From Antedon mediterranea (lineage: Eukaryota; Echinodermata; Crinoidea; Comatulida; Antedonidae), in contig NC_092670.1 of NCBI RefSeq assembly GCF_964355755.1, forward strand, positions 40,101,795-40,165,794: 64,000 nt of DNA. The letters are read 5' to 3'. A model generated the notes under the pieces. That model saw only the letters and a list, made by a program, of their open reading frames with translations, was not told the origin of the DNA and did not search any database. The position numbers and the translations under genes were made by a program. Of the stretch, positions 27,645 to 61,516 are shown in pieces (position 1 is the stretch's first letter; every line of letters begins with the position of its first letter).

Positions 27645-27742
27645 TCAAGTGGTCACAATCTCAGCAACTTTTTTAAGATCCGACATCAACATTTTTAGAC
27701 ATCGCTTAGCCAACGGCATGTCATCAAACGAAGTTTTGCTAC
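27645..27742 (-). CDS. PHF20: PHF20-like last exon
   Basis: The exon reads GSKTSFDDMPLAKRCLKMLM then SDLKKVAEIVTT and a TGA. It resembles the C-terminal amphipathic helix of PHF20 after the coiled coil. The acceptor (TAAACCAG) is in phase with the exon ending at 28880. The total length of all exons becoming an exact multiple of three supports it. Confidence 0.75.
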
Positions 27743-39700: not shown

Positions 39701-42700
39701 TCGGTACGCTTTATCGCATCCAGGAATATCACACTTGTATTTGTTATGATCTAAATCTATGACCATCTCCTTTGGAGCAAGCTCTGTTAAAAATAAAATA
39801 AATTATAAATAAACTCCACTTATTTTTAATTTCAGTAAGATTAATTTTCTTACACAGTGTGTTTTTGTGTTTTTTAATTATTAATGATACATTTATTCCA
39901 AATCTTTTGACTCCTCTAGCACTGACCTGCACTTTTCCTTTTCTACATATTTTAGCTTCTATTTTAGTTGTTTTTTTAATTATTAATGGTTCCTGATTCG
40001 AATACATATTTTACAGTTTGTTTTGATTAATTAATGACATTTGGAAGGCATTAGCCAGTAGCAATGTTTCTAGATTTGTTATTCAAACTGCTTTTAAATG
40101 TACATATTATCTTCAAATAAAAACAGTACATCTACGACTCTTTTACTGTTTACGAGTAATGTTTAAACGCATAGCAATGAACCAACCAAGAGTTCTACAT
40201 TCATTTAATGCTATAATACTTACTTCTGTTAGGATCTCTGAGAAGACCAACTTCTTTGTCCGTTATTACTAAAAATAACAATTTAATATATATCCTTTAG
40301 TCAATTCAATATATTTTTATTCCTTCAATTAAAAACAAAAGTAACAACAAAAATTTAAAACATGCTGAAGGTCCCAGATGAAAAACATTTTATTAATGAA
40401 CTTTAAACCTTGTACTCGTACCATTTGTGCATATATATATAAATTATATTTTTGAAAATGGTTGGTAATCGGCGCTACATGATGTTGATATTTTAAACTT
40501 ACGTGGCTCCCTACTTTTCTTGGCAAGTTGAGACAGTAATGGCGTTATAGGGCTCCCTAAGCTGCTGGAAATAGAGGTGTTCGAACTTGCTGCATGGAAA
40601 AGGATTGGATAGATTGGATAAATAATATTGGATTTATAAACAAATAAAAAGTAAATCATAATAAAACAATCCAAACAAAGTGAAATAGGGACTGGCATGG
40701 TGTAAGTAATAGTGTAAATAAAAATAGGGACTGGCATGGTGTAAGTAATAGTGTAAATAAAAATAGGGACTGGCATGGTGTAAGTAATAGTGTAAATAAA
40801 AATAGGGACTGGCATGGTGTAATAGTGTAAATAAAAATAGGGACTGGCATGGTGTAATAGTGTAAATAAAAATAGGGACTGGCATGGTGTAATAGTGTAA
40901 ATAAAAATAGGGACTGGCATGGTGTAATAGTGTAAATAAAAATAGGGACTGGCATGGTGTAATAGTGTAAATAAAAATAGGGACTGGCATGGTGTAATAG
41001 TGTAAATAAAACAGATGAAAAAAAACCAAACATCTTGTAAATTGATCAATAAAATTGAAAAAAAAAATGTTTTTCTGATAAAATCATAATTAAGAGAATA
41101 AAAAAATAGAAGCTTATAGACTAGAATTTAATGGGTTTTAAGTTAATTTTAACTGTATATTTTTTTTTTGTATAAGCTAAATCATTTTTTTTTTCTTTTT
41201 AGCAAAGTGATTACTTTATTAAAATTACAAAATAGCCTATTCAAAGTTCTTCAATAAATTGTGTAGAATGATTTATACTGTTATGATGTTTAATACTTCA
41301 ATTGAAGAGTTTCAGGTTTTAAATGAATTTGACAAATTTATTACAAAGACAAAACAATGATTATAAAAACTCTTTATTCAAATCTTTCAATTACATATAT
41401 ATTTACAGAAGTTATGGAAACTATAAAGAATTACAGTTACTGGTTTGTATATTAGGGTCCACAAATAAGTTTTAAATATGATAATATAAAAACAAATTAA
41501 AAAAGTGAGGCAGCACACTGTGATTCAATATTATTTTTAATTTATTTGTTCAACTTCAGGAACAAAACATAAAAATAAAGTTTGAAATATTGAATCACAA
41601 TGGCCTGCATCACATTTATTGGGGTTTGTTTAAAAGTTTATTGTAAGTTCATTCATACAAAAATCTGACTTAAGATTGGCCTGGCTCCAAATTTGCATTA
41701 GCAAACTGCTATAAATAGATTTAACATGTTAGTTGAACATTTCAAAACTAGCTAACATTTGCTTTGCAATTCAAAACAACAAAATCTTTTTAATCTTTAT
41801 CTCTGTAAAATTCAAACTTTTTTTGTAGAATCAATTATTATATTGTATTATAGCAATATATTTGTTTGTTTGCTAAAGAAGGTTGGATGCTAAAATAATG
41901 TTATGTACTTTATGTTGTTGACATTTTCAATGGCAAGAAATTAAATTTGTAATCCTGTTTTTTTCTTTTTTAATCTTCACATGCACATCTGTACTGCATT
42001 TATGTTACTTTAACATAGAGCAATTCAGTCAAAATATATTGTACCCATGAAAAAAACATTTTTAAAAAAATATTTTTGTTGAATATGCCATTTTAAATAA
42101 TAGTTATAAACAATTATTTACCTGAAAAAATGCAATTTAAAGCACAAAACAGTCAAATTGGCTGGAAGTCAATGGGTTTTTCATTGAACAAAACCATTTA
42201 TTTCACTTTGGCAGTGACAACATTTTTGTTAGATATTTTTTTCTACGAAAGTGATTAACTTGATTAAAACTGCGAAATTGCCTATTCTTTTTTTCATGTA
42301 AAAATTTTCTTTTTTCAAAACTAAATTTTTTACTGCAATAACAAATGATTTTAGTTTGTATAAATGTAGAAGTTTATATTCTTACTATTAAAAAGCTTGC
42401 TAAATAATTGCAAAATGTAGTTAATGTAGAACAATTTTGACATGGTTCGTTACAATGAATAAAAAATTAGTCTTTATATGTATGTCGACACTTTCCATTT
42501 ATACTTTCCCTAATGTACGACATATCTCTATAAACATCTCCAAACAAAGCCTCAGCTTCTGCTAAAATTGGTTTCAGTCTAACTGGATCAAGAGTCTTCT
42601 TAATCTTGATAACCCCATTGCTACTACGCCGTGGACCTCCCACAAAGCTAGAATTTTGTAACTCTTGCTTCGTAAAAAGATACCCCATCATCTTCAAAAT

Positions 42701-45700
42701 GAATGTCTGTCCTGGTTTTGGTCGAGGCTTGCTTGATGAATAACAAGCCAAATACTTTGATTTTGCTACTTCAATACACGCCACATTTTCATTACCAATC
42801 ACAATAAACTCTCCAGGTGAAGACATCTTTTCTCTCACACGTTGCTCTGCTTGTTTCAATTTTGTCTCTTTCAACTGTTTTAACTGTTCCTGAAGTTGTG
42901 GAATTGTCAGATGAGAAGAGGTTCCTGCTATCTGACCACGACCACTAATATGTTCTGTTATAGTAGAAATGTCATTTTCAATTTGATTTCTTCCAGAAGA
43001 TGAATGTGAAAGATCGTTTTCATCCATTCTTGATTCTGTTGACGAGTAGAAAAAAGGTCCGCTTACATATTTAGCTTTAAAATTGTTCTTGTGTTCATTT
43101 GTTCCGTCATTTGGCAAAACTTCATTCCCTCTGCTATCTGATAATTTTGAAATAAACATGGGTACAGGTCGAAGTTCAACATCATCCTCCAGAACTGAAT
43201 CATTTCCAGATGGATTTAAACACTGTATACTACTATCATCTTTATCCAGACAGACATCATTCTCAAGAACTCCCGGATCTGGTTTTACTGGCGTTTCTTC
43301 AGGAATCAAAATATAAGCATTTGAAGAACCTGGATGTTCATTAGCTGGAGAACCTGTTGACCTGCTGCAAGATGTGTGAACAGATTGTTTAGTATTGTTC
43401 CAATTTACTTCCTGCTGACCTGACATGTCACCTTTAATACTGTTGAAATTAGAGTTGTTTTGAGGTAATCGATTCCAGGTATCTGTGCTTCCTTCGGTTG
43501 GGTCAAAATCTTGAGTTATATCAATTTGCGCATGGTCTAATATTGAGTTTACTGGCAGATTAGTTAATTGAGATTGCTGAGATGGTTGATTCCAGATTGC
43601 ACTTTCTTCAATTTCTTGATTGGTGTGCTGTTGGAGAATCATTTCATTGTCTTTAATCGATGTGTTTGAAGGATTACACTTTGATACTAAAGCAGTCATT
43701 GTTTTTAACATCTTCTGAAAGTTAGAAAACATCTTTTGTTGGTTCAGTTCAATTCTGCCAAGTCTTCTGTTAACAGTGTCTAATTTCAGAAGTTGACGTT
43801 GAATAAGGTGTTGTCTTCGTTCAATGTTAGCCACACTTGTACCTAGCATATGAACAGATGACAGCGTTCTTTCAACTGTTGTTTCAAAATCATTTTCAAA
43901 ATCAGCGAGAGGAGAGCAACGCAATCTGGAATCTTCATCACTGGTGGTATCAGTATCTTGTTCACAGCCTTTTTGTGTCCTCAAACGATTTGATCTTTTG
44001 TCTTCTTTATCATTGCTTCTACAAGAAGTGGCCAATAAATTTGCAAATGATTCATTTCCATCCTCAAGAGAGCATTTATAATAATTTCCAAAAATGTTGG
44101 AAGAAGGTTCTCCATCAAAGGCGGAAGAAGTTTTCTTGAATTGTGTGTCCTTCTTCTTCCTCTTTCTGCAGTTGTCATCGTCATCATAAACATCAATCAC
44201 AGGATTTATGTCTGTGCAGAAAGAGAGCGAATATCAAATGTTAGAGAGCAGTTTATTGTTGAGTTTTCGTATTAGTCTGGTGATCGTCATGCAGAACATT
44301 GATGAATCCATCTCAAATTAAGTCTTCAAAATGCCATGGATGATTCTCCTTTATTAGCCATGTGGATGTTTATTCCATTTCAATTTCCATTTCAACATCA
44401 TCTCCATCTCAAATGCCATTCACGGTTCAAAACGATTTAATTTTCTAGAAAAGTACTGTTTCAGCTATTTTTAAATTTTGTTTGTGCTTTTATGCTTTTG
44501 TTTCTGTTCAAGGGGAAGGGGGATGTAGATAGAGGTGCTTGCCACCTGTTCATCCCTTTCTTTTCGCTATGTTGTGCTATGTGCTTTTTTTATTTGTATA
44601 TCTGTTTGCAGAGTATAATAAATAATAATGTTTTCAATTTCTATTTTATGTAATAAGTGCTACATGTTTTAATGTGATCTATTTTGAATTGACTAGTTGT
44701 ATATATGTGTACATTTTAAAACAATATTAAAGTTAGTTAAAGATGTATTGTCCCTTTGACTAATTCCAAAAAAATGTATAAAAAAAGATTTCGGAAAAAG
44801 CGGGTCATTTTGAAGTATCATAATATTTATTAACTTTCACCAAAAATTAGTCGAAAAAAAAATCATTTAACTGAAATACAGACATTTCTTTTTTCAAAAA
44901 ATAACTGACTTCCAGTCAAAGTTTTCGATCAAAACATATCTCATAATGCAACGCGCTTGTTTGGCTCATATGTATGCATAATCATTTAATTTCTTTGCGA
45001 TCTGTTTAAAACACCTTCTCAACCGTGAGGAGTTGTAAACAATCCTAATTAGCATCATGCATAATGCATACTCATGGTTTGAAATCTTTGTTTACTTTTG
45101 CTCGCGACAATTTTTCAGACGAAATGTAATCAAATTAATTTACCTGTTAATTATGTAAACTTCTTGTTTTTGGCTCGAATTTTCGACTTAAAGTGAATAA
45201 CTTTAATATTACTTTGATATGGCCAATTTAAATTTAGAATATTTTGACCTTCATTTTTTGTGTTTCAAGTGATAATTCATCTTTAAGTTAAATACTAGTG
45301 ATTGACACTATATATAGAAAACATCTATGGATGGACAATGTATGATACAGTATTTATTAAAGATACACTGTCTCTAAAGTCTGTCAATTTTGTAAAAAAT
45401 GAATGGATGGAATTACATAGTAATGTATTGTAAGTTTTTTCAGTAAAAATATGATACATATTTTTAATATTTTATTTTTTTTTGGTAAATAATTATTTAC
45501 AAAAATATACATTTTCTTCTTTAGACCCAATAAACTTTATTTTTTTTATAAATGATGACAACAACAAAGATGTTTTGCTAATTCTGCATACTAGGTCTAG
45601 TATACTAGCAATGTCAGTCAATGTAACATTAATTAAAATGTTTTTGTTCAAGTTCATTAAACAAATTTTCCAAATTTTTCACAATATTGGAAAAACAATG

Positions 45701-48700
45701 TTAAATAAAATATTTAGTAAAAAAATAATGAAATAAGGAATAAAGAAACGCATTAAAAAGAATAAAAAGATGGAAAAATAATTATTATTTAGGAAAATCG
45801 GTTCCTGATCACCATAGTGTGGCTAAAACATTATTTTTACAACAACAAACTGAAATACATACCTGGGCTTGAAGTATGTGACCTAGGAGAGATTGATTGA
45901 CCCTACAAAAGAAAAAAACAAACATTTTTTAATACTACACTTATAATGTATAATCAAATCCATGTGACCAACAATCGTCCAATCAAATGACAGGAATTTA
46001 TTCAGGTGTTAAATAATAATGGATAATCAATGGATTAAACAGTGAACAGTAGCTTTATTTATTTGAAGCTTTCAATTTGCGATGACCTAGTACTGTATCT
46101 TCAATAAAATCCTAGTTTTTTCGCAAAAACAAAAGCTTCTTACTTTTAAGAGAGTTGAACGACAGTTAAAATTGTAATAATCTAAAAAGAAGTTAAAATT
46201 GTCTTATTTATTAATAAATGTTAGCTTCTCTTTGCATGTGCGATCACCTTTTTTACTTTTGGTACTTAATTCAGTTACCTTCATAAAACCTTGTCATTTA
46301 TCCGATTTCTGTGCATATTTAGTTTTATTTTAAAATATTTATTATTTAAATATTCTGTATTGTTTAATTGATTAACTTTTACTACCTAAATAATAAATTG
46401 ATCATTTTATATTTAAAATAACAATATAATGCTTATTTTATGTGCGATGCTCTACAATGGCTCTGTCTTTTACTTTCTGTCTTCTGTACCACGATATTTG
46501 TTTGGCAAAAAGTATCAATATAAAATGTTGAAAGGTCATTTTTTAACTATTCTTTTGATAGCCTCTTTGTTGTGATGTGCAATTTCTAAGTTGCAACATA
46601 TGATAATCATCATCACGACTGACAAAACATTGATTGACCTGATCTAGGTTGGTCACCGCTCGTCGCAAACCGAAACCTCCCTAACATTGTTTTGTACTTT
46701 TTGCTGTTGTCAAGAATTTCTTATAGTAATTTAACCTGCATTTACTAAAGTCCTAAAAATGACAATAAAATACATACACTGGGTTTATAGCATCAACTTT
46801 ATTTATTAAAGCAAATTCAAAGATTTTTAAAAATATATAGTTTTCCAAACAAATATAATTGTCATGCAAAAAAATGCTCTATTTATAACACAATTCTTTC
46901 TGTGAAAGACTGATGTTTTGTAAATTAATAATTAAACAAAAGATAAACTCTCAATAGAGCATTTATACAGTTGAAACTAATTACATGTATGACACTTCTG
47001 CTCTTGAAATGAAACAAAGAAATGGACTAATAATGTATTATCTTTATAAAAAACATGTGAAACAGAAACTACATTCAAGCATTATGAGACTAACAATTCA
47101 GCTTTAAAACAAAAATCAAACTACAAGTTTCGATCTCTAATTGTCTGAGAAAGTGAAATAACAGGTTTAAATTGTTTGCTTCGACACAACGATAAATATT
47201 AATATTATACTAATAAAAGTAATTACGTGTTCTAAAGTGAAAACAGAAATACTTCAAAGTCAAAAAAGCTTTAACAGACCTTGTAATAGTTTTTACACAG
47301 ACTATAAGAGCTTAGTGAAATTTTTTAAAAGATCATCCAACGGTGTAATAATTACTAATATAAAACAACATTAGTTAGGTCTATAGTATTTTTTTAAGCG
47401 TTATTTTTATATTATGTAATTAATAATAATATAAGAAATGTTAAACATTGAATTTATAACCTATACACTATTGCTCTACCTCTGTATCGAGCACTCTTAT
47501 TCATGATCTGGATCAAGTCTACCATGCAGATTAACCTATACACTATTGCTCTACCTATGTATCGAGCACTCTTATTCATGATCTGGATCAAGTCTACAAC
47601 GCAGATTAACCTATACACTATACATTTATTATATTTTTCTATGAACATTGAGTATGGTTTTAATACTGTACTTGACTACCACTAAACAGTAGAATGAAGT
47701 TTACTAGAATTATTCAAATCTGGGGCGGATCCAGTTTTATTCAATATTAATTTCTATAAATTTATTAGGAAAAGGAAAATAAGAATTCCAATGTAAAAAT
47801 AATTATACTGTACATATTTTATGTTTATGTTAAAATTCAATAAACAATATCTGGCTTAATAATACTAAATGTTTTTAGAAGGTCACCATTCTGTAACGGC
47901 GTCGGACCCCTACCTAGGTGCAAATTAGCAAATGTTAGGTTAAACTCTACGTTCACCACTGATAATCTCTTGCAGAATATCATCAGTAAGTAGATCACCG
48001 TCAAAACTGGGAAACTCCTTCTTTGCTTGCAACATTATGACCTTCAAACGGAACGGATCTAAAGCATTTTTAACAGTTTGCCTTTGAGACTTCCACAAAT
48101 CGTCTCCACTTCCTGATAACTCATCGTTTATGAATAAGATTGATAGAAGTCTTTTGATAAAGAAGGTTACAGACTTGCTCTTACTCTGTATGTCTTGATA
48201 AATGTTCTTTGGAATCTCCATTTTGTAAGGATGACTGCCAATGACAACTGTATGACCTTTTCTTTGTTCTGATGATTCTTTAGAAGTTGTTCCTAAATTA
48301 TAAGCTTCCTGATTGTAAGCACCTCGCATCTGATGTTTGTTGGACACACGTGGTGTGACTGTGCATCTGGTTTCTGTTAGCTTTCTTTGTTTGGAGTTCG
48401 ATTCATTTTGACTTTGTTCTTTCAAAGAGCTAATCCTCTTCCTCCATGTTGCCTCCGTTGGAAGAACATTCATTCCTATCCTGTTGGAATTGGTTCGATT
48501 GAGGTTGTCGCAATTTTTTGAAGATGGAATGGCAAGTTCTTTCTTTCCATCCTTCTTACTAAGATGGCTCCTTGATTGAGATTCATTATTTCTCTGCTCG
48601 GTAGAAGCATTTGAACGATTCTTCTTTGGTTCCTCTTCATCATCAGACATTTCAAGCTGAATGTCCATTTCAGTGTCTTTCATTTTTGAAGACACATGAC

Positions 48701-51700
48701 CAGTACATGAGGTTTTCTTTTTTGATACTGACGACGTGACAGTTTGCAACTCACTCAATCTTTTATCAGTAACGATTGGAAGTTTATTCAGAGACACTAT
48801 GGGCATTTTTGAAAGCCTAGGTAAGAGAAGCACATCTGGTTGGTGTTCAGGCAGTTTAGAAGACCCTGAGGGAAGTTTAATTCTTGATTTAATGAAGTTT
48901 ATATTTTCTCTAGCTTGTGAATTTTTCTGGTATGGGCCAAGTTTGTAAGATGTTCTCTTGGATTGTTTTTTACCAGTGACGATTAACCTACCAGTAGAAA
49001 CACAATTGCTTTTATTATAAGATGAAGAACGCCTTAGTTGTACCAATTTGGAAGTAACTTTAGAAGGATGACCTGACATGACCTGACCTTGTCTTAGAGA
49101 ATTTTGTGGAGCAACAGAATTGACCAATGACACATCAGATTTTCTTGCTTCAGATTGCCAGCTTGAAGGAGGTCTTAAAACGGCAGCAATGACATCTCTG
49201 CTTTCTTTTTTAATGGCTTCCTTAACCTCATCCACCATCGATGTAATTTTGTCAACAACAACTGCATTACTATCAAATTGTTCCAGTTGTTTTTGTGTTT
49301 TTTCCAATACATCATCACAAATAGATTGTATGTCACTCTTGATATCCAACCGAATCTCATGTCGAAGTTTCCTTAACTGGGTTTCAATTGAGCGGAACTT
49401 GGTGTCGACATACTGATGAAGGCATTTGCAACAGGTATTGTGTCGTTGAGAAGGAATGGGTCGTCTAATTGGTGGACCTCCCAAACTGGAAGGGTATAAA
49501 AGTCGATGATCTGGAGAATTTGTCCGTGTATCAGAAATATCTGTAGAAGTTTTTGGAAAATTGTTTCTCTTAGTCTGGTGTAGATCATCCCTCAATTTTG
49601 AATGTGAAAATACCGCTGCGTTCTTGTCACTGTTTTGGCCGTTTCTTGTAGTAGGGACGGAGTAACTATTTTTCACATGACTATTGTCTTTCTCCAAAGT
49701 GGAAATTGACTTATGATTGTAATATGACCTGATTCTTGAACTTTGACCTGGAATCCTCAACATTACATCTGTTGCCGATTTGGTTCCCGAGTTAAGAGTT
49801 CTGTCAAAATGCTTTTTGTTTCCATCAGTTGAATTCTTATGCATTAATCTGTAACTTGGTTTCCGTGAAATGTAATACATTAAATCCTCTTCATTATAAT
49901 GATGCCATCTAAGATTATGACCACGAATTTGAGAAGTATTAAACGACATCAACTGAATATCACTTTGAAAAGATGTTGCATGACTGGGTAATGAATTTGA
50001 TTGAGAAGCTTTGTCAGAGTCATTATCAGAAGTTCTACAAGAAGTTTGAGGTTTTTGACTGTTGCTCGAATCATTATCGTCAGAGTCTTCCAAATCTAAA
50101 TTTATAGGCATCATAAAATCGTCATCTAGTTCACTATCTTGGTCAGTGATGTCCGAATATAGTCCTCTATTGCGGTCATCACTGTTGGACGAGCAACCAT
50201 CCCAATATGCCTGCACGTCCGCTCTCTCCTACAAGTTGAAGAAATTCGAAGAGTGAGAGTGCAGGCTTGAGATTTTTTTTTTTTAAGCAAAAGCATGAAT
50301 TTCTATAGGCTGTATATATAATGTCTGCAAAAGAAAATCATCTGCAAAAAAAATGTTGCTAAACTAAAAAAATACAAGCTGCATAAATGAAAAAAAAAAA
50401 TTTCCAAATTGCTGATAATCAATGATATATGTACGAATGATATGATATTAACATGATTTTAATCCATGGTGTAAAAGTAAAAGAGATGCAATAAAAACAA
50501 AAAGCAATCCGAGCGGCATCCAGAATCGTGAAACAAGATTCTGTAAATAAAACTTGATATCTATATGTACATACCCTGCGTGTTGCATGTGCAAAGAAAT
50601 GTGTGCTTGCTGCTGTACTCTATTATTTTACCTATACCGTAGTTCCCCGGGTATAATCCCACCCTCCTTGTACGTGAAATTTGCCCGAATTTGGGAGGTG
50701 GGACTATACCCGGGGATTTCCCACTGCATGAATTGAAAATGACGATATTTCTTCTAGCTACGATCTAAAGCTATATTCCGATGCATGTAGGCTAGGCCTA
50801 GCAATTAGACGGCCAGGCCATCTAGACCTAGGCGGCCTAATTGGTCTTACCTGTGCTATGCCTACCGTTATAGATTTTCCCCAGATTTCTACTTAAAAAA
50901 TACCCTAAAATGTGATCTAGGCCTAGCTTCCTAAATCGACATGAACTCGATCATACGAGTTCTCCGTCTCCCGGCGGTTCACCCACGCTCGAGCTCAGTG
51001 TAAATCGCATGTTGTTGCATGTGACACAAACTACTGCACAAGCCGGTCGGTATAGAGGGCGGTGTTTTTTTTACGGTAATCAAGCATGCAGTAGTGTAAA
51101 CAACAAGAAAGAATGTACACGGCGAAAGGATGTACAGAACGCGACGATCGGGGCATGCTAGCCTTAAGGTTGTATTCAACTTAACAATGTTTGATGAGTT
51201 TTAAGTCAGCCAAATTCAGAGAAATTACTCTATTCTTTGGTGAGAATTTCTTTAAAAATATTGACGTCGGCCTAGCTAGCTACAGTAGGCCTAGGCCCAC
51301 CTCTGGCCTTATATTAAATTATACACTGGGACTTTGCTCGGGGATATGCTTGCGTGCGAAGGTAATCGTAAAGTCGGGGGTGGGATTATACCCGAGGTGG
51401 GATTATACCCGAGGAACTACGGTATATATATATTTTTCTCTACAATTTAGTTTGATTCAATGCATTCTATTCATACATGACATGACATGAGTTAGCATTA
51501 TATATTTGGTTATTTAGGCTTTTCATATCAAATTTTTATACATTTTTTTAAAAAATATATATATTTTTTTTACATTTTGTTTTTGTTCTGTGTTTTATTT
51601 GTTTTCTATGTGTTATATGACAATACTGATACGGTGAGAGTCAATACGGTGAGAGTCAATGACAATACTGTAACATACTGTGAGAGTCAATACGGTGAGA

Positions 51701-54700
51701 GTCAATGACAATACTGTAACATACGGTGAGAGTCAATACGGTGAGAGTCAATACGGTGAGAGTCAATACGGTGAGAGTCAATAAAGAATTATATTCTATG
51801 CACTATTATGTAAATCTAAAGAAAAAATATAGCAACTAATGTAAATAATTTAGATAATTGTTTTAATTATTAAACTCATGCAACTGACCTTTAACCTTGG
51901 TGACATACTTTCATGTCGGATGCGCTTTGATTGGATCGGTGTTGAACTGTTTCCAGATAAACGTCTTTTTGGTGCTGATGGGCCATCGCCTAAAAAAAAA
52001 TAATTGATGGGTAAATACTTATAGAAAGAATAACAATTTTCCAATAATATTAATACAATAAAACGTCTAAAATATACCCAAGAAATCAAGAGGTATTTTT
52101 GTAAATTGACAAACTTGTAAATTGTGAACGTAATTTTTATCTTTTTGTTGTATGATAGCAAAGTACTCTACAATACTACACTTCAGGTTCAATCTAGGCA
52201 TTGGAGATCATCAATAAACAACCTAACAACCCAACGAAAGTACCAGTGTGAGTCAATGAAGTTTGCACCAATGTTTTTACTAAATTGTGAAATATTATAT
52301 ATACATTTACATTTTACCAAAATGAACTAAAAACATATGTAGCCAGTAAACCTCCATGAACTAGCAACTAAGGATTCTTGTTGTAAAGTGACATGTAGTT
52401 TCAGGCACCTTTTTCTATGCTGCTAAGTCCAATGTGTACAATTTCCCAAAAAAATACCAGTAATACATTTTGAGCTACAACATTTAACTGTCAGTGTGGA
52501 ATAGGTGGTTTTAGTGTGGAACAATCAAAATGATAGTTACTTTCAAGCGATTGACTTCGTTCCACTTTTCGGCGGCCATGACTCTTAGACCAGTCTTTGT
52601 CGTACAAGCCTTCACTCGTCTTTTTTGAAAAAATAATAGTAGAAGAAGTTCTTGATATTTTTACTGTATGTCAAACTCTCTTATGTATATAAAGTATTGA
52701 TATACCCAAATATGGTAGTGATATGCCCAAATATGGTAGTGATATGACATCATCATGTCTATATATGGGCACATCATTTTTTTGTCACATAAAATTTGAT
52801 AGTGTAGAGAGAGCTTTAGTTTCTTACCTTATCCTGTTGGAGGGACGGAGGTAAATCACGAATGTTAATAGCTTGCACAGTTTTCTTTATACCGTCGTAG
52901 AAAAGAACTTGATAAGAACCGCTACTATTCGCTGAAATGATTTCTGCCGGATAAAAACGACAGTCGGTCCATCGTGCTAACACATGCTCACCGGATCTCT
53001 ACAATATTTTAAAATAAATAAACATTATTTTAACTGTAATTTCTAAAACTATGTTTAAATGTAAATTTTGTAAAATGAAATGAACTGAATTCACTACAAA
53101 GTGAAGTGCAGTAAAACCTCTCAATAAAATTAACTAACTGTACACATAAATATTTAAGGGGAAGTATAATGTATTTTTTAATTTATACAAAAACAGGAAG
53201 TTCCCACATACAGCACACGGGCGAAAATGTAATAAAGATCAAAATATAAAATGTACAAAAAAAAGAAAATATATATATTTTTTTTAACATTTTGTTTTTG
53301 TTATATGTGTTTTATTTGTTTTCTTTGTGTTATATGCCAATACTGTAACATACGGTGAGAGTCAATAAAGAATTGTAATCTATGCACTATTAGGCCAAAA
53401 AAAAAAAATAGTTTGTTTGCTGTCATCCGCCGCCCCTAATTTCGCCAAAAATTTGGGGCGGAAATAAGAAAAAGTTTTTTTTTTACGTTGAGGGCGCTTT
53501 AAAATTTTTTTTTTTTTAATGATTTTTTTTGGCCGAAAAGGTGTAAAAATCGAGTGTGCGAGGATGAAACAATAAAAATAATAACGTAGCGTATATTTCG
53601 TTGTATAATCGCACTTTTGACACGCAAATTTAACCTCTAAATTAAGGGTGCGTCTTATACACCGAACATAAATGCCTCAACACACAGATATCGCCACCTC
53701 GTTGGCTAGGCCTGGGCTTTTTAACCGATTCACCACGATAAGCGCTTAAAGCGCTCAAAAGGTTAAAAGTCAAGGTCATTGTAAACAAATTTTCAACAAA
53801 AAAAAAGTAAATCGAATTTACATGCGCAGTTTGCTGTGCATGAATCGTAACAACAAATTATACAAAATACTCACAACTTTTTTTTTAAAAATATGCTTCT
53901 AAATATATAAAAACAATTGTTGAAGTTAGTTTGAAAATAAAATTCGAAAATATAACCGTTTTTCGAAGCACGCTGTTCGAAACGCGACAGGCGCGTTGAA
54001 TGAATCTAGGCCTAGACATACAACGTAAAATCGTCTAAAATCCATCTTTATTTCTAATAATCACTATTTTGAAGCTTGTATACAATAAATGTATAATAAA
54101 TAAAGATTATGTATCAGTTACAGTGTCTAAATCGTCATATTTCCATGTAAAAATGTGATTTTTCTACCGGAGAAAAGTCGTGAAGATGTCCTCACAAGGG
54201 CCGCGCCATATTGTTTACCTTTGATTGTAATATGAACCCTGACATGTCAGATGCATTATGGGCATGAAATATTTGTTCAAACTCTGCGCAAAGGTCAGTT
54301 TATTGAAGCATAACTTTTGACAAACATTTTGATACCAAACTTGTTTTAATTTCATAAGTTTTCGACGCATTTTCGTCAAATTTTCTGCAAGCTACACGTC
54401 TAAAACAGCGGACTAAGCTCCCGAGGGATGCCGGTGCGCGTGGGAATCGCGAATTCCAAGTCGCTTTCGGGATGTTTTTTTTAACATTCCCGGTGAACAA
54501 ACAGCGGCGAGGACGCTCTCGGGGCGGCTCCCGATAGGCCTAGGCCCCATATGGTCATCGTCGGATGAGTCAGTCTACTAATTTCTTCATAATTTCGAAA
54601 CCGGTCATTCATAATGGTCAAGTTTGGTCTTATTTTGAAGAGAAGAAATAGGTTCTGATGAAGAGATGAGTTTTATTATGAAATATTTATTAATTTTTGT

Positions 54701-55793
54701 GCATTTGGTAGTCAAAGATAAATTACAAATTTTTAATAATTTTCCTAAAATATTTCTAAAATTTGCATAATCCATACTCCGCCAAAATAAGTTGTAACAC
54801 AAATTTGATAACATATTTGGAAATAAAATGTCCTTTGCATTATTTTTGTTTTTAATTTTTTTAATGTCTGTGTTTAGAAAAAAAGTTAGGGTTAATTATA
54901 TGACATATGCTTTTTGGGTCCCAGGGGAGCAAAATAAACTTAGGGGTCAATGGGTTAAGGTAAGGCCTATTAGTATTACTAAAGTCTAAAGAGTTGCCTA
55001 GCCTAGCTACAGTGTACTAGCGTAACAGCAACCTGCTAGTTTTCAAGGCATTTTAGCGTGATTTTTTCATTATGGAGCTGTTTTTTAGGCGCTCCGATAA
55101 AATTTCATTTGAAAACGACGTTTACGATTGGAATAGTATTATAGTTATACGCACGACCGTCGTACCCCCAGCGCGAGCGAGCCCTTCTTGGCAACCACAT
55201 TGTTTACACAGTATTCGACTAGTATATTCTCCAGTTGATTATAGCATAGACCTCCTAGCGTACACACTTCAGGATACATAGATACTAATCGAATACGATT
55301 GTCCGTGAAAACGTACGTGCGCCTCTCGATAAAAGGATCGAGCGAGGCTAGCCCACACACACGTGCGGTCATGCACTCGATGTTGCGGGTGCGAAACTCA
55401 TTCATAACAAGTTAGAAAGAACTGACGGAATGGGGGACTTCCCTTCTTGTTGAGGCTAATGGGCGCGGCCGTCTTATACATCGACGATATACAAAATACC
55501 GATATTTTACTCTCAGTTAGGGGTCGGGTGCGTCTTATTATACACAGGTGCGACTTATACACCGAAATATATGGTACACTAACTTCTAAAAATTAAAATA
55601 TTTAATTAGGCCTGCTAACAACGACCTACTGTGTAGTAGTAGGCCTAGCCTAGGCTAGTTTAGACACGGGGCCTAACGTGCCCAAAACAGAATTAAAGTG
55701 TGAAACAAATTATGAATAGATGTTTGAGCTCGTTGTTTTATTCAGTGTGTTTTGTTACTCTCAAATTCGCGAGCAATTAACAGAGAAATTAAC

Positions 55794-55833
<40 letters not shown>

Positions 55834-57742
55834 TTTTTCCACCCGCCCCCCCTACCAAAAAAAAAAACTTGACAGCAAACAAACAATTTTTTTTTTTAGG
55901 CCTTATATGTAAATCTAAAGAAAAAATAAAGCAACTAACATAAATAATTTAGATAATTGACTGAAGGCAAATGACTGAAAAAATGACAATGCTGTCTATA
56001 TATATATAGAAATAAATGATAAAGACGCTAGTAAATTACCAACTGAACATTTTGTTGCACTACAGGCTGTTTCATGAGTATGAATGAAATCTTCAGGTGC
56101 TTGGCTCTCAATGATTAGATTAAACAAAGTTTTCTATTATATACCCAATATCATTTTAGCATTGTTATTATCTTACCCGTAACGAACCATCACTGCAACT
56201 GTCTCTGCGATTCGAGTGTCTTGGTGCTGGGCGTAGGCGCTCACTTTGGAAATCAACCCATTCATCATAACGTGCATTCCACCCTTCAAAGTGTATCTGC
56301 ACTTCTTCTGCATCCCAGTCAACTCGTACGATCTTAGCAGGATACCTAGAAGGCAATGTCAAGGTCAGGTCAAACATATAAACAGTAAATTAAACAACAA
56401 ACATGATTTGCTTGGGTTTTATTAATAGCATGCAAGGTTGTATTTGACTGTAAATAAGGTATGAAAGGTGAAACAATTTTGTTCCCATTGTTTTTACAAC
56501 CAATCTAGCAATAGGTGATGAAAATTAAAGACTAACAAATTTATTACTGCACAGTTAGGCTGTGGCTGTCATCGTCCAAAAAATATACTGATAACCACAT
56601 AAAACTCACTATAAAGTAGGAAGCCTTATTCTGCCATTTTTTCCTTACTGTACAATGTATTTATTATTACAATTATTATTACACTTTACACATACCACTG
56701 TACATAGGTAGAGCATTTACTATAAAATTCCCAGAATGGCCGACGAAAAAAAAAACCAGCTGTCAGTTTAAAGGATGCTAACTAAGTTTGTTACACATCA
56801 GTAAATATAAGAAATGTCTTACCAATTGTTTAGGTAATCCATGGCTTCAACCTTAAAACCTGGTTCAAAAGAAAATCCTGTTCGCACATTTCGAGTCTTT
56901 GGCTTAGTACCAATATGACCAGCGTCTCCTTGTTCAAGCATCTTGCTTGGATCTTTAACCTTTGACCTCCCTAATTGTTCACTACTTGTTTCAGAGCATT
57001 CACTTGGAGCAGCACTCTCTTGTTTTTCTTCATCTTTATTTGTTTCTATGCTGATTTCCTCTTTATTCTTGTTAGATTCAGTCACAGTATTGACAGCAAC
57101 AATTCTATTATCAGAGGAGTCTTTTCCTTGGGGTTGCTCTTGGTGTTTCTCTTGAGGTTGCTCTTGAGGTTGTACTTGAGGTTGCTCTTGAGGTTGCTTT
57201 TGAGGTTGCTCTTGAGGTTGCTCTTGAGGTTGTATGTGAGGTTGTATGTGAGGTTGTATGTGAGGTTGTATGTGAGGTTGCTCTTGAGGTTGTACGTGAG
57301 GTTGCTCTTGAGGTTTCTTTTGAGTAGCCTCAATGTCCATGGCTGCAGTCTCTTTCGACATTACTGCAATTGTCGCATCTTCCTTTTTGATTGTCACATT
57401 ATCAACATCTTGTTGTTCTTCCCTCAAAGCAATTTGTCTGGAAATTTTGCTGCTGGACAATTTTAAAGGAATACGACTTGATACCTCACCTCTACCAGTC
57501 ATTATGGACGATGGATCCACTAACTTGGAACCCACAGACTGGAGATCCTTTAAGGAAGAGGATGGTAGAATAGGAGAAGGATCCACAGAGGATGGCTCTG
57601 AAGCACTAATAGAAACAGGTTTTTTTTCAATTTTTCCAACTTCTGGTTGTTGGTTGATCTCTCCAGACAACTTGATCTGTACAACATTGGCCTCAGTTGG
57701 AGGTGGAACCGATGCTGTGTTGTCTTCTTTTGTCTCCTCCAT
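27645..57742 (-). CDS. PHF20: PHF20/PHF20L1-like chromatin reader, 16-exon long isoform (1550 aa)
   Basis: Exons, minus strand: 57742-56823, 56345-56177, 52998-52828, 52619-52541, 51989-51889, 45902-45863, 40589-40503, 40268-40224, 39783-39586, 39401-38469, 38042-37849, 31252-31153, 30831-30633, 30492-29358, 29063-28880, 27742-27645. All junctions are GT/AG and in phase; the sum is 4653 nt. Domains: Q/P-rich and S/T-rich leader; Tudor 1 (about 289-343, split at W307); Tudor 2 (365-415); C2H2 finger C555/C560/H573/H578; Lys/Ser repeat region; PHD finger C966, C968, C980, C983, H988, C991, C1005, C1008; an acidic S/T-rich stretch; coiled coil (about 1475-1518); and a C-terminal helix. PHF20 proteins bind methyl-lysine marks in the nucleus and belong to the NSL/MOF histone acetyltransferase complex. 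The gene also has two alternative BEN terminal exons and hosts nested GPCR genes. Confidence 0.9.
28009..28690. repeat. 31-bp minisatellite, about 22 units
   Basis: Unit AAGAATTGAAGAGATTGAAA plus GAAAAATGGCT repeats with few changes in the last intron of the PHF20-like gene. Because 31 is not a multiple of three, the frame rotates. The minus-strand ORFs rich in Phe, Leu and Ser across it are artefacts. Confidence 0.92.
30907..30933. repeat. (TA)n microsatellite
   Basis: A short TA dinucleotide run after GTATG lies in the intron between the PHF20-like exons at 30831 and 31153. Confidence 0.8.
31153..31252 (-). CDS. PHF20: PHF20-like exon: second half of the PHD finger
   Basis: CDSCFCWQHSMCVGLNQISV then PKKYICCFCQNPSG completes the PHD begun by VVHCVCKMNEEDGFMIQ at 37849. 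The invariant Trp two residues before the zinc-binding His is present. The intron between the two halves (31253-37848) contains the GPCR cluster. Confidence 0.92.
31290..31545. repeat. About 62-bp tandem repeat, four units
   Basis: Units contain TCCACTGTTTAAGCGTCAAG, TAAAGTAACATGCGATAG and AAAAGTAAATGTTCACAAG with mutations. It is located just inside the PHD-splitting intron, near its 3' splice site. Confidence 0.8.
31816..32606 (-). pseudogene. Class A GPCR pseudogene, third member of the nested cluster
   Basis: The copy begins at ATG 32606 with MDFNISEQTWIVMGVGCG, then loses frame in TM1. It regains homology at LHKSTRLLIFNQSVADS before a stop. It is open again through IERYLAIFKPHWFKNKYKEK and TM4-ECL2 to a stop at 32134, and ends with NPFLYMVLMPKFQT and a stop near 31816. 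The two intact neighbours keep all these segments in one frame, so this one is broken by at least one frameshift and two stops. It does not encode a full receptor. Confidence 0.85.
33224..34084 (-). CDS. Intronless class A (rhodopsin-type) GPCR, 286 aa, nested in the PHF20-like intron
   Basis: A single exon from ATG (34084) to stop. Seven hydrophobic segments are visible. N-linked site NIT at residue 4; TM1 with Asn in GLIANVVVL; TM2 with NQSVADSLG (Asp present); TM3 ending IERYLAIFKPHWF (ERY in place of DRY); TM4 with CMWPVG; TM6 INWFPF; TM7 NPFLY, the NPxxY variant; a very short basic C-tail. Cys residues in TM3 and ECL2 allow the usual disulfide. The ligand is unknown. The compact size, lack of introns and tandem copies resemble species-specific chemoreceptor or orphan-amine families of echinoderms. 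It lies on the same strand as its host gene. Confidence 0.9.
   Translation of the reverse strand: MGLNITEETWILYKIGCGVAAIGLIANVVVLCVILKLSSLRKSTRLLVFNQSVADSLGCLTFFIIFLLFDINLDLFCVMLSVLLMIAEISSFNLAVISIERYLAIFKPHWFKNKYKEKHAYIVIFCMWPVGICVHPQMIFLKEGDLFAFYCGTKEGYEVLSYISLPLSFLVFLFTTCTIIFVCLSIFYKLRKQQRLVSTQLASSTTPSLHLKTLKVFFVISSVYIINWFPFFVLFVIYRCTSNDFGFQVVVLCLIFFLTSFTVNPFLYLIFMPQFLLHLRKLFRLI
34590..34684. mobile_element. MITE family B copy between the GPCR genes
   Basis: The copy contains GGACATGATGATGTCATATC, ACTACCATATTTGGGCACAT and the right TIR TATAGGTGTAGACAGAGCTT. Confidence 0.6.
34999..36110. repeat. 564-bp local tandem duplication between GPCR genes
   Basis: The segment starting near 34999 (GATGACTTAATGTGGAACTT) is repeated from about 35565 with an offset of 564 bp. 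Shared blocks include ATCTTGGAGATCTACATTTT, TCAACAAGTA and GTTTACTGCAGTAACTACAT. The short ORFs at 35123 and 35687 are the two copies of the same non-gene sequence. The duplicated block includes the 3' flank of the 36100-36960 receptor, so it probably arose in the duplication that made the cluster. Confidence 0.8.
36100..36960 (-). CDS. Intronless class A GPCR, 286 aa, tandem paralogue
   Basis: This has the same length and architecture as the receptor at 33224-34084. It is about 80-90% identical by eye, including MGLNITEETWILYKIGCGVA and IERYLAIFKPHWFKNKYKEK. Differences cluster in TM2 (FLIQCLLF), ECL2 (KEGDQFAVCC) and TM5, which could change ligand selection. All rhodopsin hallmarks (D in TM2, ERY, CMWPVG, NWFPF, NPFLY) are kept. 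The paralogue start sites are 2876 bp apart, giving the size of the duplicated unit. Confidence 0.9.
   Translation of the reverse strand: MGLNITEETWILYKIGCGVATIGLIANVVVLCVILKLSSFHKSTRLLIFNQSVTDSLGCFTFLIQCLLFDINLDLFCVMLSVLLMFAEISSFNLAVISIERYLAIFKPHWFKNKYKEKHACIVIFCMWPVGIFVHPDKLFFKEGDQFAVCCGTKEGYKIFPYINVLLSFLVFSFTICTIFFVYSSIFYKLRKQRRLVSTQPASSTTPSLHLKTLKVFFAISSAYIINWFPFFVIVLIYHFTSNDFDFQVVVFSLIFLISSFIVNPFLYTIFMPQFLLHLRKLFCAN
37468..37530 (+). repeat. tRNA-like fragment, probable SINE head
   Basis: GCTGTGGCTTAGTGGTTATG resembles a Pol III A box. GGTCTTTAGTTCGAGTTC resembles a B box (GGTTCGAnTCC). The spacing is right, but I could not fold a sound acceptor stem. It is more likely a tRNA-derived SINE or tRNA pseudogene than a working tRNA. 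Confidence 0.45.
38469..39401 (-). CDS. PHF20: PHF20-like exon with SSKGKTVD coding repeat and Arg/Ser/His-rich tail
   Basis: The exon starts at phase 1 (PGVVTGTKKSNPTQPAK). It contains about eight to nine near-identical SSKGKTVD octapeptides, encoded by a 24-bp minisatellite at about 38870-39070. It then becomes a charged region rich in KS, RS and HH. The whole exon is low-complexity and probably disordered. Phase 1 out, donor AAAGGTTGGT. Confidence 0.8.
39586..39783 (-). CDS. PHF20: PHF20-like exon with C2H2 zinc finger
   Basis: YKCDIPGCDKAYRKGSLLDY then HKKYYH is a classical C2H2 finger, C-x4-C-x12-H-x4-H. It matches the single finger of PHF20/PHF20L1, usually xxC(4)CxKxFRKAxLLxYHxKxxH. 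A short Ser/Arg-rich basic tail follows. Phase 1 on both sides. Confidence 0.88.
40684..41010. repeat. 35/39-bp minisatellite
   Basis: Units TGGTGTAATAGTGTAAATAA plus AAATAGGGACTGGCA are repeated. The left copies carry an extra AGTA (39 bp) and the right copies lack it (35 bp). The repetitive minus-strand ORFs (FIYTITPCQSL-type) across it are artefacts. It lies in the intron right after BEN exon H. Confidence 0.9.
42197..42202 (-). terminator. AATAAA poly(A) signal downstream of BEN exon H
   Basis: AATAAA on the minus strand lies about 265 nt after the exon H stop. It is consistent with 3' processing before the downstream PHF20 exons. Confidence 0.4.
42467..44211 (-). CDS. Alternative terminal exon H of the PHF20-like gene: coiled coil plus BEN-like domain
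   Basis: A 1745-nt exon opens after acceptor TCTGCACAG in phase 1, matching the 40-nt exon at 45863-45902, and ends at a TAA. With the upstream exons it gives 1074 residues. Its first in-frame residues (DINPVIDVYDDDD) lack ATG. Contents: an acidic, basic and Ser-rich start; a coiled coil around ERRQHLIQRQLLKLDTVNRR; a long polar region; and a C-terminal BEN-like domain with GQTFILKMMGYLFTKQELQN, SSFVGGPRR, KKTLDPVRLKPILAEAEALF and MSYIRESING. Architecture parallels exon F, so the two are probably duplicates. AATAAA lies at 42197-42202. The proposed role is Tudor-guided DNA or repressor recruitment, which is inference. Confidence 0.75.
45863..45902 (-). CDS. PHF20: PHF20-like 40-nt exon that branches to BEN exon H or to the long isoform
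   Basis: This tiny exon encodes GQSISPRSHTSSP and leaves phase 1. Its acceptor (CTTTTGTAG) is in phase with the exon ending at 51889. Both the BEN exon starting at 44211 and the exon starting at 40589 accept phase 1, so it can feed either the short Tudor-BEN transcript or the PHD-containing transcript. It is supported only by splice signals and phase. Confidence 0.7.
47462..47622. repeat. Two-copy direct repeat, about 79 bp
   Basis: ACACTATTGCTCTACCT, GTATCGAGCACTCTTATTCA and TGATCTGGATCAAGTCTAC occur twice in tandem, downstream of BEN exon F. Confidence 0.75.
47736..47766 (-). terminator. Two AATAAA poly(A) signals downstream of BEN exon F
   Basis: On the minus strand AATAAA occurs at 47766-47761 and again at 47741-47736, about 175-200 nt after the stop of exon F. 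This supports use of the exon as a 3' terminal exon. Confidence 0.5.
47940..50228 (-). CDS. Alternative terminal exon F of the PHF20-like gene: coiled coil plus BEN-like domain
   Basis: A 2289-nt exon opens after acceptor TTCAACTTGTAG, in phase 0 with the exon ending at 51889, and runs to a TAA stop. Joined to the first five exons it gives 1242 residues. There is no ATG at its start (GAG AGA GCG GAC GTG CAG), which argues against a free-standing gene. Contents: an acidic start; a Ser-rich basic stretch; a helical coiled-coil block around FRSIETQLRKLRHEIRLDIK; and a C-terminal BEN-like domain with FFIKRLLSILFINDELSGSG, NALDPFRLKVIMLQAKKEFP and DILQEIISGE. BEN domains bind DNA or proteins in transcriptional repressors. 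AATAAA signals follow at 47761-47766 and 47736-47741. A separate gene with an unseen promoter remains possible. Confidence 0.75.
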   Translation of the reverse strand, partial: ERADVQAYWDGCSSNSDDRNRGLYSDITDQDSELDDDFMMPINLDLEDSDDNDSSNSQKPQTSCRTSDNDSDKASQSNSLPSHATSFQSDIQLMSFNTSQIRGHNLRWHHYNEEDLMYYISRKPSYRLMHKNSTDGNKKHFDRTLNSGTKSATDVMLRIPGQSSRIRSYYNHKSISTLEKDNSHVKNSYSVPTTRNGQNSDKNAAVFSHSKLRDDLHQTKRNNFPKTSTDISDTRTNSPDHRLLYPSSLGGPPIRRPIPSQRHNTCCKCLHQYVDTKFRSIETQLRKLRHEIRLDIKSDIQSICDDVLEKTQKQLEQFDSNAVVVDKITSMVDEVKEAIKKESRDVIAAVLRPPSSWQSEARKSDVSLVNSVAPQNSLRQGQVMSGHPSKVTSKLVQLRRSSSYNKSNCVSTGRLIVTGKKQSKRTSYKLGPYQKNSQARENINFIKSRIKLPSGSSKLPEHQPDVLLLPRLSKMPIVSLNKLPIVTDKRLSELQTVTSSVSKKKTSCTGHVSSKMKDTEMDIQLEMSDDEEEPKKNRSNASTEQRNNESQSRSHLSKKDGKKELAIPSSKNCDNLNRTNSNRIGMNVLPTEATWRKRISSLKEQSQNESNSKQRKLTETRCTVTPRVSNKHQMRGAYNQEAYNLGTTSKESSEQRKGHTVVIGSHPYKMEIPKNIYQDIQSKSKSVTFFIKRLLSILFINDELSGSGDDLWKSQRQTVKNALDPFRLKVIMLQAKKEFPSFDGDLLTDDILQEIISGERRV
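50634..51426. mobile_element. Non-autonomous TIR transposon just upstream of BEN exon F
   Basis: The left end ACCGTAGTTCCCCGGGTATA and the right end TATACCCGAGGAACTACGGT are inverted repeats, and TA lies at both flanks. The subterminal GGGTATAATCCCACC motif is duplicated in inverted form near each end, giving nested hairpins. No ORF for a transposase is present. It sits in the intron between the fifth exon (51889) and exon F (50228). Confidence 0.75.
51628..51785. repeat. Short tandem repeats of TACGGTGAGAGTCAA
   Basis: About eight copies of the 15-bp TACGGTGAGAGTCAA/TGACAATACTGTAAC pattern are seen. A related single copy at 53350-53370 and the surrounding T-rich sequence show that the 51540-51860 and 53260-53392 regions are paralogous. 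Confidence 0.75.
52699..52816. mobile_element. MITE family B copy next to the Tudor 2 exon
   Basis: Two copies of ATATGCCCAAATATGGTAGT are followed by GACATCATCATG, ATGGGCACATCA and the TIR AAAATTTGATAGTGTAGAGA-GAGCTT. The element ends 12 bp from the exon 3 donor. Confidence 0.7.
52828..52998 (-). CDS. PHF20: PHF20-like exon 3: Tudor 2
   Basis: RSGEHVLARWTDCRFYPAEI, SGSYQVLFYDGIKKTVQ and INIRDLPP form a canonical Tudor barrel. It is homologous to the PHF20 second Tudor, which binds dimethyl-lysine; W, Y and F/Y cage positions are visible. Exon borders are phase 0. A MITE B copy lies 12 bp beyond its donor site. Confidence 0.92.
53393..55902. mobile_element. 2.5-kb non-autonomous transposon with TTA target duplication
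   Basis: The left TIR is GGCCAAAAAAAA followed by AGTTTGTTTGCTGTCA. The right end is its inverse, TGACAGCAAACAAACAATTT...TTAGGCC. TTA flanks each side. The interrupted host sequence continues as TATGTAAATCTAAAGAAAAA on the far side, and the uninterrupted paralogue is present at 51795-51830. TTA duplications are typical of PIF/Harbinger elements. The interior holds no transposase that I can recognise. It also contains a poly-A tract (about 55798-55830). Confidence 0.75.
56177..56345 (-). CDS. PHF20: PHF20-like exon 2: body of Tudor 1
   Basis: The sequence YPAKIVRVDWDAEEVQIHFE then GWNARYDEWVDFQSERLRP completes the Tudor/MBT-like fold typical of PHF20, where WNxRYDEW is nearly invariant. Phase enters at 2 and leaves at 0 with donor CGGGTAAGA. 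Confidence 0.9.
56823..57742 (-). CDS. PHF20: PHF20-like exon 1: disordered Q/P repeat leader and start of Tudor 1
   Basis: This exon starts at ATG (57742) and ends AACAATTG before GTAAGA, in phase 2. Residues about 150-205 are a QPHIQPHIQPQEQPQ-type repeat made of CAACCTCA-like units on the coding strand, an in-frame coding minisatellite. The end, RTGFSFEPGFKVEAMDYLNN, begins the first Tudor domain. A possible 3' acceptor of a 5' UTR intron (TTTTTCAAAG) lies at about 57781. A possible upstream non-coding exon with donor AAGGTAAGC ends at about 58082. Confidence 0.85.
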
Positions 57743-60700: not shown

Positions 60701-61516
60701 ATTAACCTTATTGAATTGAACACCTTTAATAATTGTTTATATTTTTTTAAAGAAGCTAAAGTATTTGACAATTTAAGATTAAAAGGCATAGTATTCCATA
60801 AATATGGTCCATAAGATGTCCTACGTAATAAAATAGAAAACCTTTCATAAAATGATATTTTTTGAAGTCGAAGACCTAGTATTATAAGAATGCAATTGAC
60901 AAAAATATGAAAATCTTTAAAAGTCATCTTGAAATCAATCTATTCGTAAAAAATAAGCTTTACTACGTACTAATACCACTGCAACCAACCTTGTTGAATT
61001 GAATGAAAATATAATTATTTTATTAGGCTACTGACGGTTTGTTGGGTGATGATTCGAAATGATTTGAAAACAAACCAATTTTAGATCAGCCTATTTCAAT
61101 ACCACAATTTCAATCGACATAAAATAATACATTAAACTTAGGCTTTCAAATGTATTTAATACATCATGTAAATGAAGCAAAAACATACAATACAATATTA
61201 AAAATAGGTTAAATCTCTTTTAGAATTTAGAATTTCACTTTGAGAGTCCGCCCTCATTCGGCTACCAAAGATCGAAATGGGGATTCCCCTTCTCGTACCA
61301 GGTTGATGATGATTGGTGAAATATGATCACGTGGTCAAGTTTTTCTAACGTGGCGGGAACATGAATCGTTCGCGAACTTTCTATTTAGTATCTGTCAAGA
61401 AGTGTCAAGAAGAGAAGAAGAGGATCGCGTATAGACAACAACTGCATAAAATACTGTTATAAAATATATTGTCTGTTGTTAATTTATTATAGTTATATTG
61501 TGTAATAATTCTGAAG
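57743..61516. other. Intergenic region between the PHF20-like and FAN1-like genes
   Basis: This should hold the PHF20-like promoter and 5' UTR (about 57.75-58.4 kb; a candidate 5' UTR exon ends at 58082). It also holds a remnant of a TIR element (about 59755-59881, TTTATTCGAATAAATACGGT) and LINE remains at 60000-60950. The FAN1-like promoter region at 61250-61500 contains ATTGG boxes but no clear TATA. No other gene is supported. Confidence 0.5.
60262..60950 (-). mobile_element. LINE 3' end: reverse-transcriptase C-terminal relic and tail
   Basis: On the minus strand, about 60927 down to 60700, the translation contains ILLRRTSYGPYLWNTMPFNL then KLSNTLASLKKYKQLLK. This is the typical C-terminal motif of CR1/Jockey-type ORF2. 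The 3' tail reads into TAAATAAAGTTTTTATTATT at about 60275-60300, a microsatellite-like end. A second, similar 3' tail lies at about 59995-60130. No intact ORF. Confidence 0.65.

Follow-up and report, generated by a model that had tools for sequence, protein, structure and literature searches.

The window, a 64,000-nucleotide stretch of contig NC_092670.1 of the crinoid Antedon mediterranea, carries on its minus strand one PHF20/PHF20L1-like gene that runs from 57742 to 27645. The gene was modeled with 16 coding exons and GT-AG junctions, and its open product of 1563 amino acid residues possesses two Tudor domains, a PHD finger and a probable C2H2 zinc finger. Two very long exons, BENa and BENb, lie in introns 5 and 6, respectively. 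In the order of transcription, the features of the gene are:

E1, 56823-57742, minus strand: first coding exon, with the ATG at 57742
E2, 56177-56345, minus strand: Tudor 1, of MBT/Tudor-knot type, with cage residues F326 and W329
E3, 52828-52998, minus strand: Tudor 2, with cage residues W373, Y379 and F396
E4, 52541-52619, minus strand: coding exon
E5, 51889-51989, minus strand: last exon common to all modeled products, with an in-frame ATG as codon 475
Element, 50633-51426: about 0.8 kb in intron 5, with 31-nt terminal inverted repeats (97%); holds the sole intron-5 candidate of the first-exon scan
BENa, 47940-50228, minus strand: putative terminal exon of 762 codons plus stop, with a C-terminal BEN domain
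E6, 45863-45902, minus strand: 40 nt, common to the full-length and BENb products
BENb, 42467-44211, minus strand: putative terminal exon of 580 full codons plus stop, with a C-terminal BEN domain
E7, 40503-40589, minus strand: first exon unique to the full-length product
E8, 40224-40268, minus strand: coding exon
E9, 39586-39783, minus strand: C2H2 zinc finger, with a Pfam match under the cut-off
E10, 38469-39401, minus strand: charged, low-complexity exon
E11, 37849-38042, minus strand: first part of the PHD finger
E12, 31153-31252, minus strand: second part of the PHD finger
E13, 30633-30831, minus strand: C-terminal region
E14, 29358-30492, minus strand: C-terminal region
E15, 28880-29063, minus strand: C-terminal region
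E16, 27645-27781, minus strand: last coding exon, with the stop

The best matches of the Tudor exons among PDB structures were the Tudor domains of PHF20L1 (E = 5e-16), and the next named family was the Tudor domains of PHF20 (E = 6e-13). Together with the clear PHD finger of the full-length form (PHD_5, E = 7.4e-21), these matches bear out the PHF20 identity that the first-pass annotation had given to the gene. Similar to PHF20 and PHF20L1, the gene encodes tandem Tudor domains in which all five cage residues named in PMC8867114 are kept. These are F47 and W50 of Tudor 1 and W97, Y103 and F120 of Tudor 2, as found in gapless alignments to PHF20L1 on which the published residue numbers were placed by counting. 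The C2H2 region was below the Pfam cut-off (zf-C2H2, E = 0.047), and its C-x4-C-x12-H-x4-H spacing is visible. A search of the 354-Mb genome with the Tudor exons identified no further close copy, and the next match had an E-value of 0.003. A search of the assembly for COX1, as a check on the species, had no match.

Other genes were also observed in and near this gene. The intron between E11 and E12, which splits the PHD finger, contains two rhodopsin-type GPCR open reading frames that look complete and share the strand of the host gene (36100-37002 and 33224-34111, minus), as well as a third copy near 32600-31800 that appears broken by eye. In addition, an open reading frame with a FAN1 HTH domain is found on the opposite strand (61493-62539, plus), about 3.8 kb from the start codon of the PHF20-like gene.

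The two long minus-strand exons were present as the first-pass annotation had described them, and their in-phase acceptors, in-frame stops and openings without an ATG were all confirmed. The acceptor of BENa (TTCAACTTGTAG followed by GAGAGA) is in phase with E5 and that of BENb (CTTTCTGCACAG followed by ACATAA) with E6; by chance, both would match the phase of the host exon directly upstream in 1 case in 9. BENb is out of phase with E5, to which a direct join runs into a stop after 481 residues. When the splicing was rebuilt, E1-E5 plus BENa gave a product of 1242 residues and E1-E6 plus BENb one of 1074 residues, both of which agree with the earlier annotation, while its figure of 1550 residues for the full-length product is replaced by that of the 16-exon model. 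With a generic splice matrix, the BENa acceptor ranked among the best 1.5% of the 547 intronic AGs and above 12 of the 15 other acceptors of the gene. The BENb acceptor scored above all 547 intronic AGs and all 15 other acceptors.

The frames of both exons are open well before any methionine. With stops at the intron rate of 0.0655 per codon, open frames as long as those of BENa (762 codons) and BENb (580 codons) would arise by chance with probabilities of about 4e-23 and 8e-18, respectively. The first in-frame methionine follows 38 codons after the acceptor in BENa and 120 codons in BENb, so that an upstream coding exon is needed for this in-frame coding sequence. At the same stop rate, the pre-methionine stretches would be open by chance with probabilities of 0.076 for BENa, which is weak as an argument alone, and 0.0003 for BENb. 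Moreover, codon-use scoring trained on the other exons of the PHF20-like gene gave these stretches (38 and 122 codons) 0.291 for BENa and 0.156 for BENb in the right frame and no more than 0.024 in the other frames, whereas the highest scores among 3000 length-matched random draws from introns were 0.257 and 0.121, respectively. Thus, given that these stretches are open and coding-like in the right frame only, each BEN exon is in all likelihood joined by splicing to a coding exon upstream of it. The AATAAA signals that had been reported downstream are indeed present, 174 nt past the stop of BENa and 265 nt past that of BENb. As evidence they do not stand, because such hexamers are frequent in this AT-rich DNA; 14 and 12 AATAAA or ATTAAA hexamers were found in the two gaps, for which 9.0 and 8.6 were expected. 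Poly(A) signals were consequently rejected as support for terminal exons.

The BEN-like C-termini noted in the first-pass annotation fared differently against Pfam BEN (PF10523). BENb matched marginally, with 21.7 bits for the whole exon (E = 2.3e-4) and, once trimmed, 23.3 bits (E = 7.6e-5) relative to a cut-off of 23.2. For BENa, the whole exon gave no BEN match in Pfam, and the trimmed sequence gave 12.3 bits (E = 0.2), which is under the cut-off and behind DUF2701 (E = 0.09). A genome-wide Pfam BEN search at E-values of 0.001 or better identified 12 places, and neither BENa nor BENb was among them. Both exons nevertheless matched other BEN domains. BENa was aligned to a profile of seven other BEN domains of the genome, from which BENb had been left out, with an hhalign E-value of 4.8e-10, and 0 of 100 shuffles scored as well. 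The domains aligned were from 7 of the 12 Pfam BEN places (L001, L002 and L004-L008), leaving aside L003, which has internal stops, one further place and three copies nearly identical to L008. A profile of eight BEN domains of the genome, with BENb included, matched the solved structures of BANP, BEND3, BEND6, NACC1, RE55538p (which we take to be Insensitive) and Bsg25A, with E-values from 1e-11 to 0.011.

The PDB was also searched with single sequences and with a model. A phmmer search with the BENa C-terminus found no BEN match, and that with the BENb C-terminus placed sulfotransferase chains (E = 0.01) ahead of BANP (E = 0.14), a result taken as chance. An AlphaFold model of BENa, built from two sequences, was of modest quality (pLDDT 62, pTM 0.52). 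With this model, Foldseek placed BEN domains at ranks 1 to 4, but every match had an E-value above 1. In VIA-align, the ten best of 17 rows were all BEN domains, with Z-scores from 7.1 to 4.4, and a Z-score below 8 is weak on its own. BENa is called BEN-like by profile comparison, and not a Pfam member, because it misses the Pfam cut-off; at the level of sequence its BEN homology is clear from that comparison, with the modest fold model in support.

BEN domains read DNA via helix 5, and the BANP Arg316 site, which CpG binders conserve, is described as central to the selection of CpG (PMC11472053). The helix-5 arginine in the column matched to BANP Arg316 is invariant in all nine BEN domains of the alignment, among them BENa and BENb. 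BENa, however, ends one residue past the arginine, while BENb continues for five residues. DNA binding by BENa is therefore doubtful, as the rest of helix 5 is missing after the arginine and the domain may bind DNA poorly.

Genome searches with BENa and with BENb identified no close copies of either exon. Neither exon was listed by the search with the other, so weak relatives may have been missed. BENb is nearest to BENa by sequence, with an identity of 31% compared with 15-27% for the other aligned BEN domains, and the two are 26% identical over 189 residues in a pairwise alignment (E = 2e-7, as a single comparison). The BEN tree does not settle their relationship: BENa is on a very long branch, and the pair was grouped in just 10% of 200 bootstrap trees, which leaves an origin of BENa and BENb by tandem duplication unsupported.

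Which upstream exon is joined to the BEN exons was addressed with a dedicated first-exon scan, which counted ATG exons with a fair, phase-matched donor at a threshold of 4.76 and took its expectation from dinucleotide shuffles. For BENa the scan covered intron 5, where 1 candidate was found compared with 1.97 expected, and for BENb it found 0 candidates in intron 6 compared with 0.61 expected. The wider stretch between the BENa stop and BENb (47937-44212) contained, as a raw count, three candidates with donors of 7.5-8.1. As controls, two other BEN ORFs of the genome, L001 and L002, gave 7 candidates compared with 1.85 expected and 32 compared with 2.48, respectively. These control exons are themselves putative. 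With a donor score of 5.3, the likely exon at L001 drops out at a threshold of 6, and many of the 32 candidates of L002, which were counted for phase 0 as the best of three phases, are ATGs nested in one repetitive stretch; at a threshold of 6, L002 gave 5 compared with 1.23. The scan and the phases favor the host exons as donors to BENa and BENb, with first exons at a greater distance a less probable source.

These results bear directly on a rival reading, in which BENa and BENb belong to two separate nested BEN genes that start from promoters and short ATG first exons of their own and are not spliced to the Tudor exons. Such genes are plausible because the other BEN genes of the genome seem free-standing, one of them, L001, with a short putative ATG exon, and putative 5' exons are found just upstream of the BEN ORFs at both L001 and L002. 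The GPCR genes nested in the E11-E12 intron and the three fair-donor candidates between the BENa stop and E6 point the same way. Phase-matched ATG exons, however, occur at no more than chance in introns 5 and 6, and the acceptors of both exons match the phase of the host exon before them, which makes independent nested genes unlikely. An internal promoter upstream of E5 could also give BEN-only isoforms that lack the Tudor domains, with translation that starts at the ATG of E5 (MSPRLK) and runs on into BENa or, by way of E6, into BENb. E5 does have an ATG in frame, codon 475 of the product, six codons ahead of the junction, and a BEN-solo family of proteins is known (PMC5043383); we nevertheless consider such isoforms rather improbable. 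Finally, the divergence of BENa and its long branch might suggest that the introns captured BEN genes and that BENa and BENb are what is left of them, decaying or unused. Remnants would hardly retain open frames of such length, coding-like codon use and good acceptors, and this explanation is very improbable. Thus, the locus is probably a single PHF20-like gene that has, besides its full-length form, two alternative 3' terminal exons with BEN domains.

If the PHF20-like gene uses its BEN exons in this way, splicing from E5 to BENa or from E6 to BENb, followed by intronic polyadenylation, would end the protein early. The short products would keep both Tudor domains, including the Tudor 2 cage of W373, Y379 and F396, and would lose everything past E5 or E6. 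Their zinc finger, PHD finger and NSL-binding C-terminus would be swapped for a long linker, which by eye has an acidic start and a heptad-like stretch, and a C-terminal BEN domain. The C-terminus of PHF20 and PHF20L1 is stated to be required for NSL and Tudor 2 for chromatin (PMC8867114). The BEN forms would accordingly be NSL-free readers bound to chromatin, with an extra DNA or protein contact. Both the use of the junctions and DNA binding by the BEN domains are predicted from sequence. The Tudor-BEN forms may share chromatin targets with the full-length protein and bring no acetyltransferase complex, so that their effect would be opposite to, or apart from, NSL/MOF recruitment; repression by them is suggested by analogy with other BEN proteins. 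It is possible, and we propose it tentatively, that one promoter gives two antagonistic sets of chromatin proteins. The full-length Tudor-PHD reader would recruit the NSL/MOF acetyltransferase, and the Tudor-BEN proteins would bind to the same methyl-lysine sites and, in addition, to specific DNA that perhaps contains CpG. Because the latter would share the methyl-lysine sites yet be unable to recruit NSL, intronic polyadenylation might act as an activator/repressor switch.

Truncation after the Tudor domains has precedent, as the b and c forms of PHF20L1 are described with the MBT/Tudor region and without the PHD (PMC3961655). Different from PHF20 and PHF20L1, the crinoid gene appears to have two early terminal exons that each add a BEN domain. 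Among the titles on BEN with PHF20 or with a Tudor domain, including those on echinoderms, and in a glossary entry of PMC4641500, no such fusion was found. The partner domains of BEN named in PMC5043383 are BTB/POZ, coiled coils, C4DM and C2H2 fingers, a list that ends with "etc". The closest parallel is Mod(mdg4) of Drosophila, in which a common N-terminal chromatin module is combined with BEN in one specific isoform (PMC5094011). In the crinoid gene, in contrast, the partner module is Tudor instead of BTB, and both of its BEN exons lie on the host strand. Mod(mdg4) is further characterized by trans-splicing and by many 3' exons. Since a Mod(mdg4) isoform uses BEN, chromatin proteins with BEN in a specific isoform are already known, and it is the PHF20 version, the combination of Tudor and BEN on a PHF20 gene, that looks new; the gene annotations of other animals may already show such a combination. 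Similarities to NACC1 (BTB-BEN), BANP and BEND3 include the BEN-like fold suggested by the modest BENa model and the helix-5 arginine in BENa and BENb, whereas the partner domains of these proteins are different. NACC1 has no Tudor domain, and BANP and BEND3 are not known to carry one.

If the junctions are used, the gene of an NSL-complex reader would have gained a built-in alternative that may bind DNA, with a natural split between mark reading and acetyltransferase recruitment. Next to Mod(mdg4), it would provide another example of BEN as the isoform-specific end of a chromatin protein, and would suggest that BEN exons are easily swapped between genes as parts.

Free-standing genes of a related layout were also found in the genome. 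They encode a small N-terminal domain, called TL here, and similar to the products modeled for the PHF20-like gene, a same-strand BEN domain lies downstream of this short domain in all five loci examined (L018, L021, L028, L029 and L030, on C2, C4, C1, C4 and C2 of genome G000, respectively). The five are from nine places (10 rows); two places with stops and two further ones were excluded from the TL alignment. The BEN domains of L018 and L021 were already in the alignment of the BEN model itself, and at L030 the BEN domain is split over two frames. Different from the PHF20-like gene, the N-terminal domain of these genes is weakly Tudor/Agenet-like at best and is not a PHF20 Tudor. TL gave no Pfam match above the cut-off and only chance-level matches to the PDB, and in comparisons with the two Tudor domains 2 of 60 and 3 of 60 shuffles scored as well, so that a relation of TL to Tudor is unsupported by these searches. 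Because this resemblance is weak, a general Tudor-BEN link is a lead suggested by sequence and not a result.

Two further observations concern BEN ORFs elsewhere in the genome. At L017 (G000 C5:1313500-1323499, minus), a BEN ORF lies just 3' of what by eye is a phospholipid-scramblase-like gene, with a very short putative ATG exon ahead of it. A scramblase-BEN fusion considered at L001 was dropped, as a typical last scramblase exon, recognized by its motif, was found downstream of the donor. Finally, four BEN ORFs (G000 C3:17494147, C4:12839581, C5:15001719 and C11:13688433) are near-identical, as if they were borne by a mobile element or recently duplicated.
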